A stretch of DNA of 64,000 nt, taken from Thalassospira sp. (GTDB lineage Bacteria; Pseudomonadota; Alphaproteobacteria; Rhodospirillales; Thalassospiraceae). Each line of letters starts with the position of its first letter. The first letter of the stretch is position 1. Of this stretch, positions 13,667-18,716 are shown piece after piece. Location: assembly GCF_030690045.1 (NCBI RefSeq), contig NZ_JAUYHK010000009.1:1-64000 (forward strand), written 5' to 3'. The notes beneath the pieces were generated by a model. The model did no database searches and was not told the DNA's origin. It saw only the letters and a program-made list of their open reading frames with translations. The position numbers and the translations under genes were made by a program.

Positions 13667-14617
13667 ATGGCCCAGACACATCACACCAAAGTCCTGATCA
13701 TCGGTTCCGGCCCGGCGGGTTATACCGCCGCCATCTATGCCGCGCGCGCCAATCTTGAACCCATGATGGTCATGGGGTTGCAGCCGGGCGGGCAGTTGAC
13801 CATCACCACCGATGTTGAAAACTATCCGGGCTTTGCCGATGTCATTCAGGGGCCGTGGCTGATGGAGCAAATGAAAGCCCAAGCCGAACATGTCGGCACC
13901 AAAATGGCCCATGACCTGATTGTCGATGTCGATTTTTCCAAACGCCCCTTTGTCTGCAAGGGCGATTCCGGCGACAGTTACGTTGCCGAAAGCGTGATCA
14001 TCACCACCGGGGCGCAGGCCCGCTGGCTCGGCCTGCCCGGCGAGGCAAAATACAATGGCCGCGGTGTATCGGCCTGTGCGACCTGTGACGGGTTTTTCTA
14101 TCGCAACAAACCGGTTGTCGTGGTCGGCGGCGGCAATACCGCCGTGGAAGAAGCCCTCTATCTCGCCGGAATTTGCAGCAAGGTGACGCTGGTCCATCGC
14201 CGCGATGAATTGCGTGCCGAAAAAATGTTGCAGGACCGCCTGTTCAATCACGACAAAATCGATGTGATCTGGGACAGCGTGATCGACGATATTCTGGGCG
14301 GCGACGGCCCGATGGACGGGGTCGAAGGCGTTCGCCTGCGCAATATCAAAACCGATGCGCTGACCGATATCGCCGCCGACGGATTTTTCGTTGCCATCGG
14401 CCATGATCCGGCAACCAGGGTGTTTCAGGGCCATATCACGATGGACCCGGAAAATTACATTCTGGTGCAACCCGGCACGACGCGCACCAATGTCGCCGGT
14501 GTTTTCGCCGCTGGCGATGTCACCGACAAAATTTACCGTCAGGCCGTCACTGCGGCGGGGATGGGCTGTATGGCCGCGTTGGAGGCCGAAAAATTCATCG
14601 CCGAACATCAAGGCTGA
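13667..14617 (+). CDS. trxB: Thioredoxin reductase
   Basis: A 316-residue flavoprotein that uses NADPH to reduce thioredoxin in the cytoplasm. The FAD-binding motif GSGPAGYTAAIYAARA is near the N-terminus. The redox-active CATC is in GVSACATCDGFFYR, the NADPH-binding motif is VVVVGGGNTAVEEALYLAGI, and the C-terminal FAD motif is GVFAAGDVTDKIYRQAVTAAGMG. The length is that of the low-molecular-weight bacterial enzymes. The ATG at 13667 gives MAQTHHTKVLIIG, the normal start. A terminator follows closely. Confidence 0.97.
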   Translation: MAQTHHTKVLIIGSGPAGYTAAIYAARANLEPMMVMGLQPGGQLTITTDVENYPGFADVIQGPWLMEQMKAQAEHVGTKMAHDLIVDVDFSKRPFVCKGDSGDSYVAESVIITTGAQARWLGLPGEAKYNGRGVSACATCDGFFYRNKPVVVVGGGNTAVEEALYLAGICSKVTLVHRRDELRAEKMLQDRLFNHDKIDVIWDSVIDDILGGDGPMDGVEGVRLRNIKTDALTDIAADGFFVAIGHDPATRVFQGHITMDPENYILVQPGTTRTNVAGVFAAGDVTDKIYRQAVTAAGMGCMAALEAEKFIAEHQG

Positions 14618-14841: not shown

Positions 14842-15753
14842 ATGGATTGGGACAAACTGCGTGTTTTTCACGCTGTTGCCGAGGCGGGAAGTTTTACCCA
14901 TGCGGGGGAAAACCTTAATCTCAGCCAGTCAGCGGTCAGCCGCCAGATCAGCGCACTGGAAGACAGCGTCAAAGTCCCGCTGTTTCACCGCCATGCCCGC
15001 GGTCTGATCCTGACCGAACAGGGCGAACTTCTCTATCGCACCGCCCATGATGTCTTTGCCAAACTGTCGATGGCCGAGGCCCGCATTCGCGAATCGCGCG
15101 AACGGCCCAGCGGCCCGTTAAAGGTCACGACCACCGTTGCCTTTGGTTCCACCTGGCTGACCCCGCGCATCAACGAATTTCTGGAACGCTATCCCGATAT
15201 CGAATTGTCGCTGGTTCTTCATGATCAGGAACTCGATCTGGCGATGCGCGAGGCCGATGTTGCCATTCGCATGATGCCGCCGCGTCAGGCCGATCTGGTG
15301 CAACGGCAATTGATGACCTTGCGCTATCATGTCTTTGCCTCGCCGGAATATCTCAAAATTCATGGCGTGCCGAAAAAACCCGAAGACATCAAAAATCACC
15401 GCCTGATCATTTATGGCGAGGATGCCCGCCCGCCGGTATCAAACGTCAACTGGATGATGAATGTCGCCCGGCAGTTCAAACCCGATATGCGGGCAATCCT
15501 GAAACTCAACAATATCTATGGCATTTTCCGCGCCACCGAATCGGGTCTGGGCATTTCGGCCCTGCCCGATTATCTGGTGCCCGCCGACAGCAATCTGGTC
15601 CGTATCCTGCCCGAACTCGAAGGGCCCAGTTTTGACGCCTATTTCGTCTATCCCGAAGAATTGCGCCATTCCAAACGCATCGGCGTGTTCCGCGATTTCC
15701 TGATTGAAAAAATCAACGAGGCCAAGGCCCGTGTCACCGGCATTCCGGACTGA
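14842..15753 (+). CDS. LysR-family transcriptional regulator
   Basis: A 303-residue LysR protein. It has an N-terminal winged helix (LRVFHAVAEAGSFTHAGENLNLSQSAVSRQISALEDSVKVPLFHRHARG) and a two-lobed effector domain beginning with SGPLKVTTTVAFGSTWLTPRINEFLERYPDIELSLVLHD. Its adjacent genes are trxB upstream (beyond a terminator) and an sRNA-like region downstream, so no neighbouring target is evident. It is flanked by terminators on both sides and is probably a single-gene unit. The ligand is unknown. Confidence 0.93.
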   Translation: MDWDKLRVFHAVAEAGSFTHAGENLNLSQSAVSRQISALEDSVKVPLFHRHARGLILTEQGELLYRTAHDVFAKLSMAEARIRESRERPSGPLKVTTTVAFGSTWLTPRINEFLERYPDIELSLVLHDQELDLAMREADVAIRMMPPRQADLVQRQLMTLRYHVFASPEYLKIHGVPKKPEDIKNHRLIIYGEDARPPVSNVNWMMNVARQFKPDMRAILKLNNIYGIFRATESGLGISALPDYLVPADSNLVRILPELEGPSFDAYFVYPEELRHSKRIGVFRDFLIEKINEAKARVTGIPD

Positions 15754-15786
15754 TCCCCTCCGGGGAAAATCCCGAACCACCCTTCA

Positions 15787-15815
15787 AACGTCCGCCTGGC
15801 AAAGGCGGGCGTTTT
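15787..15815 (+). terminator. rho-independent terminator after LysR gene
   Basis: AACGTCCGCCT and AGGCGGGCGTT (15787-15797 and 15803-15813, one G-T wobble) form a stem followed by TTGC. This separates the LysR gene from the sRNA-like region. The stretch 15816-15961 holds no gene; it contains GACATAATGTC (an 11-bp inverted repeat) and AT-rich promoter-like sequence. Confidence 0.65.
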
Positions 15816-15961
15816 GCATGAAGGCCATCTGCCCGGCTGTGCCATGACAGACTGACATAATGTCTTCATATTGTTGTCATTTTTCCGCCATGCAGAAAAC
15901 GCATGGTTGCTGTGTCGCATTTCTATTTTTAAACGTTACAGACCACACATATATTCACATC

Positions 15962-16139
15962 TGCGGTTGTTAGCGCCTGCACATACGGGCTTGCTCCCAA
16001 CCGCTCCGATCAGTCCCTCCTGATCCGTCCGGCCGGAACGTTATCCGGTCTGGAATCCCCAAGATTCCCCGTCTTCCGGACGTTAAAGCCTCCCTGTTGA
16101 TCCTGCCGGTAACCTTTCGGGGTTACCGGCTTTTTTTTT
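15962..16139 (+). ncRNA. Putative small RNA 1 with C-rich loops and intrinsic terminator
   Basis: The region has no ORF but shows RNA structure. A 7-bp stem GCGGTTG/CAACCGC (15963-15969 with 15998-16004) is followed by a 6-bp hairpin GATCAG/CTGATC (16008-16025) that displays the loop TCCCTC. A long closing stem CGTCCGG/CCGGACG (16026-16032 with 16076-16082) encloses the hairpin GGAAT/ATTCC, whose loop is CCCCAAG (16057-16063). Next come an unpaired CCTCCCTG (16089-16096) and a classic terminator, stem GCCGGTAACC/GGTTACCGGC (16105-16130) plus nine T. A -10-like TATATT at 15950-15955 sets the assumed start. The 3' module is shared with small RNA 2. The exposed C/U-rich loops resemble anti-Shine-Dalgarno sRNAs (inference). 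Confidence 0.6.
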
Positions 16140-16241
16140 CGCAGTCGCACATAAAATTCTGCCCCGCCCCCCTTGCGTCCGGATTGTGGCTCGACCTTTC
16201 GGAAAATTTATTGTTTTATTTCAGATTATTAACCGCCAGTT

Positions 16242-16266
16242 GGAACCTGTTTTAGCTTTATGCGTT
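16242..16266 (+). promoter_or_regulatory. EcfG (general stress sigma factor)-type promoter
   Basis: GGAAC (16242-16246), exactly 16 bp, then CGTT (16263-16266) match the alphaproteobacterial EcfG consensus GGAAC-N16/17-CGTT. It faces small RNA 2, which would then start near 16274. A housekeeping-like TTGTCA at 16290-16295 is an alternative. Confidence 0.5.
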
Positions 16267-16273
16267 TTACGCA

Positions 16274-16504
16274 TGGCAGAAGGATCAATTTGTCAGTGGT
16301 ACTTTGCCGATAAATTGCTATCTTCCCTCTCGAACCACAGCGGCAAACACCGCACCGTGGTAACAGATTTCTCCCTGACCGATTTTCCGGTCTTGGTCGG
16401 GCTCCCAGCCCGGCCACCCAGGGCCCCGAGAGGGGTCCTACGTCTCCCAGACGTGAAGCCTCCCTGATAAACTTGCCGGGCACATTGTTGCCCGGCTTTT
16501 TTTT
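16274..16504 (+). ncRNA. Putative small RNA 2 with C-rich loops and intrinsic terminator
   Basis: Second plus-strand element, about 365 bp downstream of the first. Hairpins in order: CCAC/GTGG with an inner GCGG/CCGC; CGGGCT-CCC-AGCCCG (16398-16412); CCCC-GAGA-GGGG (16424-16435); ACGTCT-CCC-AGACGT (16440-16454). Then come an unpaired GAAGCCTCCCTG and the terminator GCCGGGCA/TGCCCGGC (16475-16482 with 16489-16496) plus eight T. CTCCCTG occurs twice (16371 and 16460). The CCTCCCTG-then-terminator module and the preceding GACG-type hairpin are also found at the same place in element 1, so the two look homologous. The 5' end is uncertain: near 16274 if the EcfG-type promoter is used, near 16322 if the size matches element 1. 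Confidence 0.6.
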
Positions 16505-16636
16505 GTCCTGAATCTCCTCCCACACAAACCCGTGACGCCCCGCGATCATCGGCCCCTTGGCAGAACCGCCATTGCCCGCCACACTGCATCGCCCCGGCGT
16601 CCTGGTCCGGGGGCAAGCAAGGGGGCCGCACACCAC

Positions 16637-17980
16637 ATGAAAACCGATATCGCCGAATTCCTGTTTGGCAAGGCCCCCAAGGCCGGCCTGCCCGACCGCG
16701 TGACCGAGGCCATCGCCCGGCAGCAACGCCAAAGCGAAAAGCTGATCGGTTGGGTGCAGTTATTATTAATGGTGATTTTCGCCAGCCTCTATACCATCAC
16801 CCCCAAAACCGCGATGAATCAGGGTTTTCATCCGGTGCCGTGGGCGCTCGCCCTTTATTTTGTCTTTACCCTGACCCGGCTGGGGCTGTCCTGGCGCATG
16901 GCGCTGGCCGACTGGTTTCTGACCCTCTCGGTCATCGCCGATATCGGGCTTTTGATGGTGCTGATCTGGAGCTTCCACATCCAGTATATGCAGCCCGCCA
17001 GTTTCTATCTTAAAGCGCCGACCATGATGTATGTCTTTATCTTTATCGCGTTGCGCGCCCTGCGGTTTGATCCGCGCTATATCCTGCTGGCCGGGGGGAC
17101 GGCCGCCCTTGGCTGGTTGGCGCTGGTGTTTTATGTGATCTGGAGCGAGGGCGGGCAGAGCATGATCACCCGCAATTACGTCACCTATCTGACCTCCAAT
17201 TCCATCCTGATCGGGGCCGAGATCGACAAGATCATCGCCATTCTGATGGTGTCGGGCATTCTGGCGATTGCGGTTTTGCGCGCACAGCGGTCGTTTCAAC
17301 GCGCCGTCTCCGATGAAATTGCCGCCCGCGACCTGTCGCGCTTTGTCTCGCGCGAGGTGGCCGCCCGCATCACCCATGCCGATCAGCAAATCCGCGCCGG
17401 GGATGGTGAATCGGTCCATGCCACCGTGATGTTTACCGATATCGAAGGCTTTTCAACCCTCTCGGAAACCCTGACCCCGCAGGAACTGGCCCGGATGCTT
17501 AATGACTATTTCGCCGCCACCAATGCGGTGATCGAACAATATGGCGGCGTCATCAACCAGTTTGAGGGCGACGCCATGCTGATCACCTTCAACGCCGTCA
17601 CCCCGGACCCGGACCATGCCCGCAAGGCGGTCCTGACCGCCCTTGGCATTCAGAAAACCTGTCGGGAAACCGTGTTTTGCCATGGTGGTTATCTGAAAAC
17701 GCGCTGTGGTATCAATACCGGCAATGTTGTCGTCGGGGCGATTGGATCGCAGGACCGCCTGACCTTCACCGTGCATGGCGATACCGTCAATATCGCCGCC
17801 CGCCTTGAACAGATGAACAAACAGTTCGGCACTTTTGTCCTGACAACCGGCGAAACCTTGCAAGCCTGTGGCGAAACCCCGCCCTTTGAAAGCCACCCCC
17901 GCGGCGACGTCACCGTGCGCGGGCGCAGCACCCCTACCGCAATTTTCAGCATTGAGGAAATTGGCAAGGTCACCCCATAA
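16637..17980 (+). CDS. Membrane-bound class III adenylate/guanylate cyclase
   Basis: A 447-residue protein with an N-terminal membrane domain of about six hydrophobic segments (for example LIGWVQLLLMVIFASLYTI, WALALYFVFTLTRLGL, FLTLSVIADIGLLMVLIW, YILLAGGTAALGWLALVFYVIW, IIAILMVSGILAIAVL). The C-terminal catalytic domain has the class III nucleotide cyclase signature: VMFTDIEGFSTLSETL with the first metal Asp, NDYFAATNAVIEQYGGVINQFEGDAMLITFNA with the second, CGINTGNVVVGAIGS, and FTVHGDTVNIAARLE. It would make cAMP or cGMP at the inner membrane. The start at 16637 is chosen at the first ATG after the GC-rich leader. The gene is flanked on both sides by the putative sRNAs. Confidence 0.9.
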   Translation: MKTDIAEFLFGKAPKAGLPDRVTEAIARQQRQSEKLIGWVQLLLMVIFASLYTITPKTAMNQGFHPVPWALALYFVFTLTRLGLSWRMALADWFLTLSVIADIGLLMVLIWSFHIQYMQPASFYLKAPTMMYVFIFIALRALRFDPRYILLAGGTAALGWLALVFYVIWSEGGQSMITRNYVTYLTSNSILIGAEIDKIIAILMVSGILAIAVLRAQRSFQRAVSDEIAARDLSRFVSREVAARITHADQQIRAGDGESVHATVMFTDIEGFSTLSETLTPQELARMLNDYFAATNAVIEQYGGVINQFEGDAMLITFNAVTPDPDHARKAVLTALGIQKTCRETVFCHGGYLKTRCGINTGNVVVGAIGSQDRLTFTVHGDTVNIAARLEQMNKQFGTFVLTTGETLQACGETPPFESHPRGDVTVRGRSTPTAIFSIEEIGKVTP

Positions 17981-17981
17981 A

Positions 17982-18155
17982 AAAAGAGCGGGGCGGGGTT
18001 TGAAACCCGCCCCGTCTTTGGGGGACAGTTGGTCTTGGGGAGACCTTAATGCCAAACGCGCCGTTCGACCCTGGGGTGCAGATGCTGCGGGGGACAGCAA
18101 ATTGGGGTCCCGGTGTTTGCGAGGGAGGGACGCACACCGGTTGTCGCGTTTGACA
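17982..18155 (-). ncRNA. Putative small RNA 3 (minus strand) with three C-rich loops
   Basis: Read on the minus strand. The first hairpin CCGGTGT/ACACCGG plus GCG/CGC (18110-18140) presents the loop TCCCTCCCT. A GACCC/GGGTC stem (18067-18071 with 18105-18109) encloses hairpin GCTG/CAGC with loop TCCCCCG. GGTCT-CCCCA-AGACC follows (18031-18045). The terminator is a GGGGCGGG/CCCGCCCC hairpin ending in CTCTTTTTTTT just outside the cyclase stop codon. A candidate promoter (TTTTCA, 16 bp, CATAGT on the minus strand at 18162-18189) precedes it. It is a diverged tandem copy of element 4. No ORF of note overlaps it. Confidence 0.6.
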
Positions 18156-18250
18156 ATTGTGACTATGCCCGATAATTGCGGCATGAAAACCAGCGACTTA
18201 AGACCATTTCAGGGCAAATAAAGGCAAAAGAAGACAACCCGGAAAAACGC

Positions 18251-18415
18251 AAAAAAGAAGGGGCGGGGTTTGAAACCCGCCCCATTTTCGGGGTCAAATG
18301 GTCTTGGGGAGACCGATCAGTTCGAGGCGTCATTTGCTCTCTCACGGGGGACGATAAAGAGCGTCGGTAACGCTTGAGGGGGGACAGAAATGTTCCGACA
18401 ACCACCTCGTCTGAC
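18251..18415 (-). ncRNA. Putative small RNA 4 (minus strand), tandem paralogue of small RNA 3
   Basis: Same architecture as element 3, offset by about 270 bp. A GTCGG/CCGAC stem (18363-18367 with 18395-18399) exposes TGTCCCCCCTC. GCTCT/AGAGC (18336-18362) exposes TCCCCC. A long-range CGAGG/CCTCG pairing (18323-18327 with 18405-18409) closes both. GGTCT-CCCCA-AGACC (18300-18314) and the terminator hairpin with CTTCTTTTTT are nearly identical to element 3. The upstream stretch TTTCAGGGCA...AAATAAAGGCA is also shared. A similar promoter candidate (TGTTTT, 18 bp, CATATT on the minus strand) lies at 18422-18451. The remaining gap 18452-18716 before the EF-G-like gene shows nothing I can identify. 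Confidence 0.6.
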
Positions 18416-18716
18416 ATTCCCAATATGACTTGGGATTAAGGCCGGAAAACAGGCCGGTTAAGGTGATTTCAGGGCAGATCATGGCGAAATAAAGGCACAT
18501 CTTTCAAAACCTGAAATAGAAAGCCTGTCACCGGCCATCAATTTTCCTTGCTGTTGATGCGCAGCAGTGAAAGGATTATCCGGAAGAAGCAAAGCCCGGA
18601 ACCGGTCCCTTGCACAGGGCCGCCATACCGGGCCCATACGGCACCAGGATCGCGACCGACGGGACGCGCTGCCGCCTCCTGCCGGACGGATCATTTTCCG
18701 CCGCGAGGAGATGACC

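Follow-up and report, generated by a model that had tools for sequence, protein, structure and literature searches.

The closest described relatives of the locus considered here are the small RNAs (sRNAs) AbcR1 and AbcR2 (alpha-r15, RF02345) of Sinorhizobium, Agrobacterium, and Brucella, a tandem pair encoded directly 3' of trxB and the LysR regulator gene lsrB/vtlR (in Agrobacterium, the order is trxB-vtlR-abcR1-abcR2; PMC7486931), which are known as host-interaction and uptake regulators in Rhizobiales. The consensus given for VtlR is GCAT-N3-TG-N3-T (PMC7486931), an LsrB box lies at -61 to -49 in the Sinorhizobium meliloti promoter PabcR1 (PMC8844928), and CUCCCA is the M1 motif of the Brucella AbcR RNAs (PMC5461406). 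LsrB is described as unique to Rhizobiales in a section title of the LsrB paper (further literature drawn on: PMC11975290, PMC3927594, PMC3712013, PMC7685610). We analyzed a stretch of 64,000 nucleotides from Thalassospira sp. (contig NZ_JAUYHK010000009.1, positions 1 to 64,000; the window), in which four putative sRNA elements, E1 to E4, flank a membrane cyclase gene. We consider it likely that E1 and E2 are LsrB-activated, AbcR-like sRNAs that act as a brake on nutrient uptake, that E3 and E4 are a second pair, and that the cyclase is incidental. This reading is built on conservation, promoter boxes, structure, and synteny, from which we infer transcription, binding by LsrB, pairing, and targets.

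The gene order in the window is trxB, lsrB, E1, and E2, all on the plus strand. The first gene (13667..14617, +) encodes a thioredoxin-disulfide reductase (NCBIfam TIGR01292, 405 bits with a cutoff of 343) and the second (14842..15753, +) an LsrB/VtlR-type LysR regulator whose best PDB match is 9hh1, the LsrB of A. tumefaciens, with 341 bits versus 126 for the next-best entry. Despite the published restriction of LsrB to Rhizobiales, this protein was matched at E <=1e-70 in 53 of 60 genomes of the order. It contains no cysteine, a property of 18 of the 22 orthologs parsed (the window's own counted), in contrast to the Agrobacterium LsrB, described as sensing oxidants via cysteines (a thiol switch). 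Without a cysteine, a switch of the Agrobacterium type cannot operate alike, and the signal sensed must therefore differ.

E1 (15962..16136, +; terminator at 16105-16130) and E2 (16331..16502, +; terminator at 16475-16496), with 5' ends predicted from the position of the -10 hexamer, lie before the cyclase gene, and E3 (17981..18156, -; terminator at 18014-17989) and E4 (18254..18416, -; terminator at 18283-18260), with approximate 5' ends, lie after it. An earlier note on this DNA had placed the four elements, their intrinsic terminators, and their C-rich loops at these same sites; its range of 165 to 230 nt gives way to predicted lengths of ca. 157 to 175 nt. The terminator hairpins are strong, and the 3-kb region holds eight terminator-like sites versus a shuffle mean of 4.5 (standard deviation, 2.3). 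The elements also fold more stably than shuffled sequence, with single-strand z-scores over 200 dinucleotide shuffles of -5.4 (E1), -6.1 (E2), -4.7 (E3), and -3.9 (E4), and in each case 0 of the 200 shuffles were as stable as the real element. The note had looked to synteny in related genomes as a check, and E1 to E4 are indeed kept throughout the genus: among 19 Thalassospira genomes, including that of the window, all carried E1 and E2, and all carried at least two elements of the E3/E4 type with an invariant GGTCTCCCCAAGACC hairpin. On average, two E2 transcripts were 90% identical and two E1 transcripts 77%, versus 56 to 59% for two flanking spacers. Because of this conservation, the conserved promoter boxes, the covariation of E3, and the terminators, we uphold the view that these are candidate sRNAs with anti-Shine-Dalgarno loops; judged by the same features, E1 to E4 are very probably real sRNA genes that would be transcribed.

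Upstream of E1, the -10 hexamer TATATT (15950..15955, +) is preceded by the operator TGC-N7-GCA (15891..15903, +), a T-N11-A LysR box kept in 19/19 genus genomes, and by a VtlR/LsrB box GCAT-N3-TG-N3-T (15901..15913, +) that is exact in 19/19. The start of this box is always 49 nt upstream of the -10, which corresponds to ca. -61 if the -10 spans -12 to -7, so that it occupies the position known for the LsrB box before the first AbcR RNA. E2 has the same operator (16261..16273, +), again in all 19 genomes, and a -10 hexamer TATCTT (16319..16324, +), with GCATGG at a distance of 48 nt from it.

Within E2, a core of 23 nt, TCTCCCAGACGTGAAGCCTCCCT (16443..16465, +), was exact in all 19 genus genomes. 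It joins the CUCCCA hairpin ACGTCTCCCAGACGT, which has six pairs and a CCC loop, to single-stranded CCUCCCU; in the fold, the hairpin is followed by unpaired GAAGCCUCCCUG and then by the terminator. The CUCCCA hairpin loop was found in E2 of 19/19 and in E1 of 18/19 genus genomes, and a covariance model (R1) built from 47 sequences, the window's E1 and E2 included, recognized both RNAs at the window's locus and at those of the 18 other genomes. Across the class, a degenerate version of the core (four free positions, <=1 mismatch) was detected in 88 of 289 alphaproteobacterial genomes, belonging to 69 of 223 genera, and the reversed pattern, used as a control, in none of the 289. The exact core occurred in at least 119 stretches of GTDB contigs, with titles that name alphaproteobacterial taxa or plain Proteobacteria, and the contig counts given here and below rest on the exact matches listed. 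Among these, 95 contigs extend 1.5 kb or more upstream of the core, and 84 of them have an LsrB gene upstream in the same orientation (median distance, 207 nt); a T-run followed the core in 117/119. Of 111 windows, 84 had TGC-N7-GCA in the 300 nt before the core, where Markov-made windows would give 10.7, and the box was present in 15 of 112 downstream control windows; these are related sequences, and the counts are not independent. Of the LsrB loci parsed in the order sample, 23 of 29 carried the motif pair (drawn from 30 loci out of 53 matched genomes, leaving out L130, with an unparsed LysR frame). Rfam at its cutoff gave no match in 20 core-bearing LsrB loci from relatives, and in the freely accessible literature we found no description of the TCTCCCAGACGTGAAGCCTCCCT string or of AbcR in Rhodospirillales, Azospirillum, or relatives. 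E1 and E2 represent a widespread, apparently uncatalogued family adjoining a conserved regulator gene.

E1 and E2 occupy the locus of the AbcR RNAs and, by analogy, would work like them, through LsrB binding, pairing, and similar targets. Like that pair, they stand in tandem directly 3' of trxB and lsrB, the first RNA is preceded by an LsrB box at an equal distance, and E2 combines a CUCCCA hairpin loop with a second C-rich strand; the predicted targets also include transport genes. There are differences, too. The M2 motif of the AbcR RNAs (GUUCCC/UUCCCCUC) lies between hairpins 1 and 2, while E2 has CCUCCCUG (CCUCCCU) before the terminator, and AbcR RNAs measure 114 to 121 nt (PMC8844928) versus a predicted ca. 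166 to 178 nt for E1 and E2. The Rfam ar15 model gave no row at E <=10 over 15750-18650, which is a weak test, since in 115 class genomes and 14 controls the model gave no match either. Because they depart from alpha-r15 at two sequence-level marks, the M2 motif and the ar15 model, we have not filed E1 and E2 there. At the Rfam gathering threshold, a tRNA was the sole match in the whole window, and no family reached its cutoff near E1 to E4.

In the mechanism that we propose, the LysR regulator encoded upstream, an LsrB/VtlR ortholog, would activate E1 and E2 as tandem trans-acting RNAs by binding the TGC-N7-GCA boxes that lie ca. 60 nt upstream of the two start sites. The C-rich segments that both RNAs expose (the CUCCCA loop, the CCUCCCU strand before the terminator, and further CUCCC loops) would then pair with Shine-Dalgarno sequences of the GGGAGG type and block translation, with ABC and TRAP uptake genes as the likely main targets, as expected for a nutrient-uptake brake of the AbcR type. 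E3 and E4, a genus-restricted, multihairpin, C-rich pair, probably share this mode of action but answer to a different regulator.

The second pair was compared with the first on structure and promoters. E3 displays the loops UCCCUCCCU, UCCCCCG, and GGTCT-CCCCA-AGACC, together with unpaired CUGUCCCCC, and the 3' module of E4 resembles that of E3; both pairs share a layout in which a GTCTCCC-type hairpin is followed by a C-rich strand and a terminator. Before E3, the box TGCCCTGAAATGG (18204..18216, -) lies 40 nt from a -10-like hexamer, CATAGT (18162..18167, -). The general form, YGCCC..AAATGG with a CATATT-like -10 lying 40 nt downstream, was recovered in 30 of 42 E3/E4 rows scanned, and the window's own E4 was unmatched by it. 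Since RNAalifold misaligned the terminators of R1 (only 5 pairs), covariation was judged on E3, with an alignment (A2) that leaves out the truncated E3 of G008 and an E4-type copy of G011. Over 43 pairs and 19 distinct sequences, 90.1% of the cells were paired, versus at most 44% in slid-alignment controls, and two-sided changes affected 20 of the 43 pairs and 63 cells versus 10.0 and 18.4 in shuffles. The stems of E3 covary above shuffles, in line with the earlier note, which had named a lack of covariation beforehand as speaking against its proposal. The CCCCA hairpin yields no such test because it is invariant, and the pair counts for E4 are script-derived, with P1/P3 partly misaligned. The same note had taken the four elements as a single family, an idea that we abandon for two families, since the covariance model of the E1/E2 core misses E3 and E4. 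E3 was found in 0 of 12 genomes outside the genus; on these sequence comparisons, E3 and E4 are a second, separate family of the same broad kind, seen only in Thalassospira and with a different upstream box.

Two genomes show rearrangements of this pair. In G011 (L102, 9065-10715), elements of the E3/E4 type have grown to at least four copies with the exact hairpin, next to two cyclase genes. G008 has an intact copy of the locus on contig C9 and a second copy on contig C18 (L099, L368; ca. 1.7 to 40.8 kb) in which an insert of ca. 39 kb splits E3; a repeat search at this split found no common word of >=12 bases.

Targets were sought in the window's own genome as a site resembling a ribosome-binding site, a spacer of 3 to 10 nt, and ATG, keeping open reading frames (ORFs) of >60 amino acids and identifying transport parts by Pfam. 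For CAGGGAGG there were 28 matches (two of them one site paired with two ATGs), of which 5 fell on ORFs of <=60 amino acids; 11 of the 23 ORFs kept were ABC, TRAP, or tripartite transport parts, and DctP and Peripla_BP_4 genes are among the predicted targets. AAGGGAGG and GAGGGAGG ([A/G]AGGGAGG) together gave 21 matches, 6 of them on short ORFs, and 6/15 transport parts. As [A/G]AGGGAGG still pairs with CCUCCCU, it was dropped as a control in favor of CAAGGAGG, which has one more seed mismatch and pairs less well (28 matches, 7 on short ORFs, 3/21 transport parts). One-sided Fisher tests against CAAGGAGG gave p 0.018 (11/23) and p 0.016 (17/38), from one genome, one main control, and small sets, with a category picked post hoc. 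This is no more than suggestive of E1 and E2 silencing genes for nutrient uptake and transport, a step for which support is weak.

Those features of the target test weigh against our reading, as does the set of results gathered in this paragraph. The count of transport parts includes L381 (TctC), barely above the cutoff, while an MFS gene among the controls was left uncounted. Small-RNA sequencing of nine Thalassospira species has been published (PMC6413936), and of 89 short tags taken from its printed tables, which hold miRNA-like picks only, none falls within E1 to E4 with <=2 mismatches. At E2, the full VtlR consensus was found in 0/19 genus genomes, the palindrome standing alone, and in the class-wide set the exact VtlR box occurred upstream of the core in only 21 of 111 windows (2.6 expected; 1 of 112 downstream). 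The window's own E1 lacks the CUCCCA loop and has UCUUCCGGA instead, while the 18 other genus genomes keep it. No LsrB gene was found upstream in 11 of the 95 core contigs (L200, L219, L220, L223, and seven more), where the sRNA may have moved or the linkage may have been lost in some lineages, and the motif pair was absent from 6 of the 29 parsed LsrB loci within the stretch examined. As to the second pair, R1 gave no match to E3 or E4 at E <=10, and layout is the ground on which their function is argued; in the covariation test of E3, 30 of 500 shuffles equaled the number of further pair types, and only 60.9% of the cells of helix 3 were paired.

A separate observation concerns the strand opposite E1: in the printed tables of the sequencing study, a T. 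australica tag with 2252 reads matches exactly between lsrB and E1, on the minus strand (L096, ca. 598-617) of the T. australica-type genome G006.

Other C-rich sRNAs of Alphaproteobacteria offer a different affiliation. The earlier note had suggested a distant relative of the cuckoo family (NfeR1/cuckoo/CcsR, alpha-r14), whose members carry CCUCCUCCC in hairpin loops (PMC10746234) and, in the CcsR type, follow a DUF1127 gene within one transcript (PMC10253847); this definition is taken from citing papers. Several hairpins with anti-Shine-Dalgarno loops and variable stems, most evident in E3 and E4, would fit membership and processing from a DUF1127-sRNA operon, and so would sub-threshold matches to suhB (MmgR/suhB, RF00519; 29.3 bits for E2, 23.4 for E1, and 16.7 for E4, below the gathering score of 41) and SorX (RF02784; 27.0 bits for E2 and 20.6 for E1, below 46.6), with which E1 and E2 share a CUCCCU strand and, after it, a GC-rich terminator. 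However, E1 to E4 have other loop sequences without CCUCCUCCC, the cuckoo motif CCTCCTCCC has 0 occurrences in the window, trxB and a LysR gene stand upstream in place of DUF1127, and promoter-like sites of their own precede E1, E2, E3, and most E4 copies of the genus, with terminators on all four. We regard this affiliation as very improbable and have dropped it. It is unlikely, if less so, that the main role of the C-rich RNAs is that of a sponge, for other RNAs or an RNA-binding protein, instead of pairing with Shine-Dalgarno sequences: each molecule does bear many redundant C-rich loops, but every letter of the 23-nt core is conserved, as one would expect of a pairing seed, and AbcR RNAs at the same locus are reported to act through pairing (PMC8844928, PMC5461406).

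That E3 and E4 are distant paralogs of E1 and E2, diverged after duplication and serving one target set with them, is a possibility that we take seriously while inclining against it. The shared layout and the weak suhB match of E4 favor common descent; the failure of R1 to reach E3 and E4, the different promoter boxes, and the restriction of E3 to the genus in our searches favor separate origins. The explanation to which we give least credence makes the elements cis-acting, as a leader or attenuator of the cyclase gene, with E3 and E4 converging on its 3' end. The E2 terminator does end 36 to 141 nt upstream of the possible cyclase starts, and a cyclase ortholog occupies this place in 18/19 genus genomes. 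G007, however, keeps all four elements without a cyclase, inserts of ca. 5.5 and ca. 4 kb part E2 from the cyclase in G004 and G011, and among the matches listed, only 2 of the 119 core contigs had a cyclase match, both from Thalassospira. We return to the reading of E1 and E2 as trans-acting, LsrB-activated sRNAs.

The cyclase (16637..17980, +) is a membrane class III adenylate/guanylate cyclase (PF00211, 1e-26). Its candidacy as a functional partner of the sRNAs was rejected, since G007 has all four elements without it and the outgroups compared keep the two apart: in G019, G020, G022, G024, G025, and G027, the sRNA matches fell on other contigs than the best match to the cyclase. The placement around a cyclase gene, new to the author of the earlier note, holds for the genus, and its functional meaning is probably none; on this evidence, the cyclase is probably an incidental, genus-specific neighbor.

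The inserts in G004 (L094) and G011 (L102) both sit at the 3' end of E2, before the cyclase, and each brings a second copy of that end; the one in G004 encodes a tyrosine integrase (Pfam), and the one in G011 has a near-identical ORF. tRNA genes are commonly used as integration sites, and the conserved 3' end of E2 seems to be used as one here. A third sRNA-like element lies elsewhere in the window's own genome (L361, 931-1018; C22, 163930-164017), with the same CCTCCCTGTTAAACT strand and a terminator, and matches of 23 to 28 bits were found elsewhere in 13/13 genus genomes of that search. In each of six copies examined, the start is preceded by TTAA-N7-TTAA, a motif that resembles a CtrA site, and a class III cyclase gene lies nearby (PF00211 for L361, tblastn homologs for the five others).

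If the reading is true, the LsrB-linked core, found in 69/223 sampled genera, marks one of the broader alphaproteobacterial sRNA circuits, and the absence of cysteine from LsrB poses the question of which signal the protein senses. More tentatively, and with considerable doubt on our part, the LsrB-AbcR circuit may be older than thought, spread across a large part of the Rhodospirillales-like Alphaproteobacteria with a letter-perfect 23-nt core that Rfam misses, and Thalassospira may have made of it a multi-sRNA hub, adding E3 and E4 and a third relative with a CtrA-like box near another class III cyclase, which could wire uptake silencing to cyclic-nucleotide signaling. The operator motif and the seed are ready for testing in Azospirillum, Acetobacteraceae, and marine bacteria.

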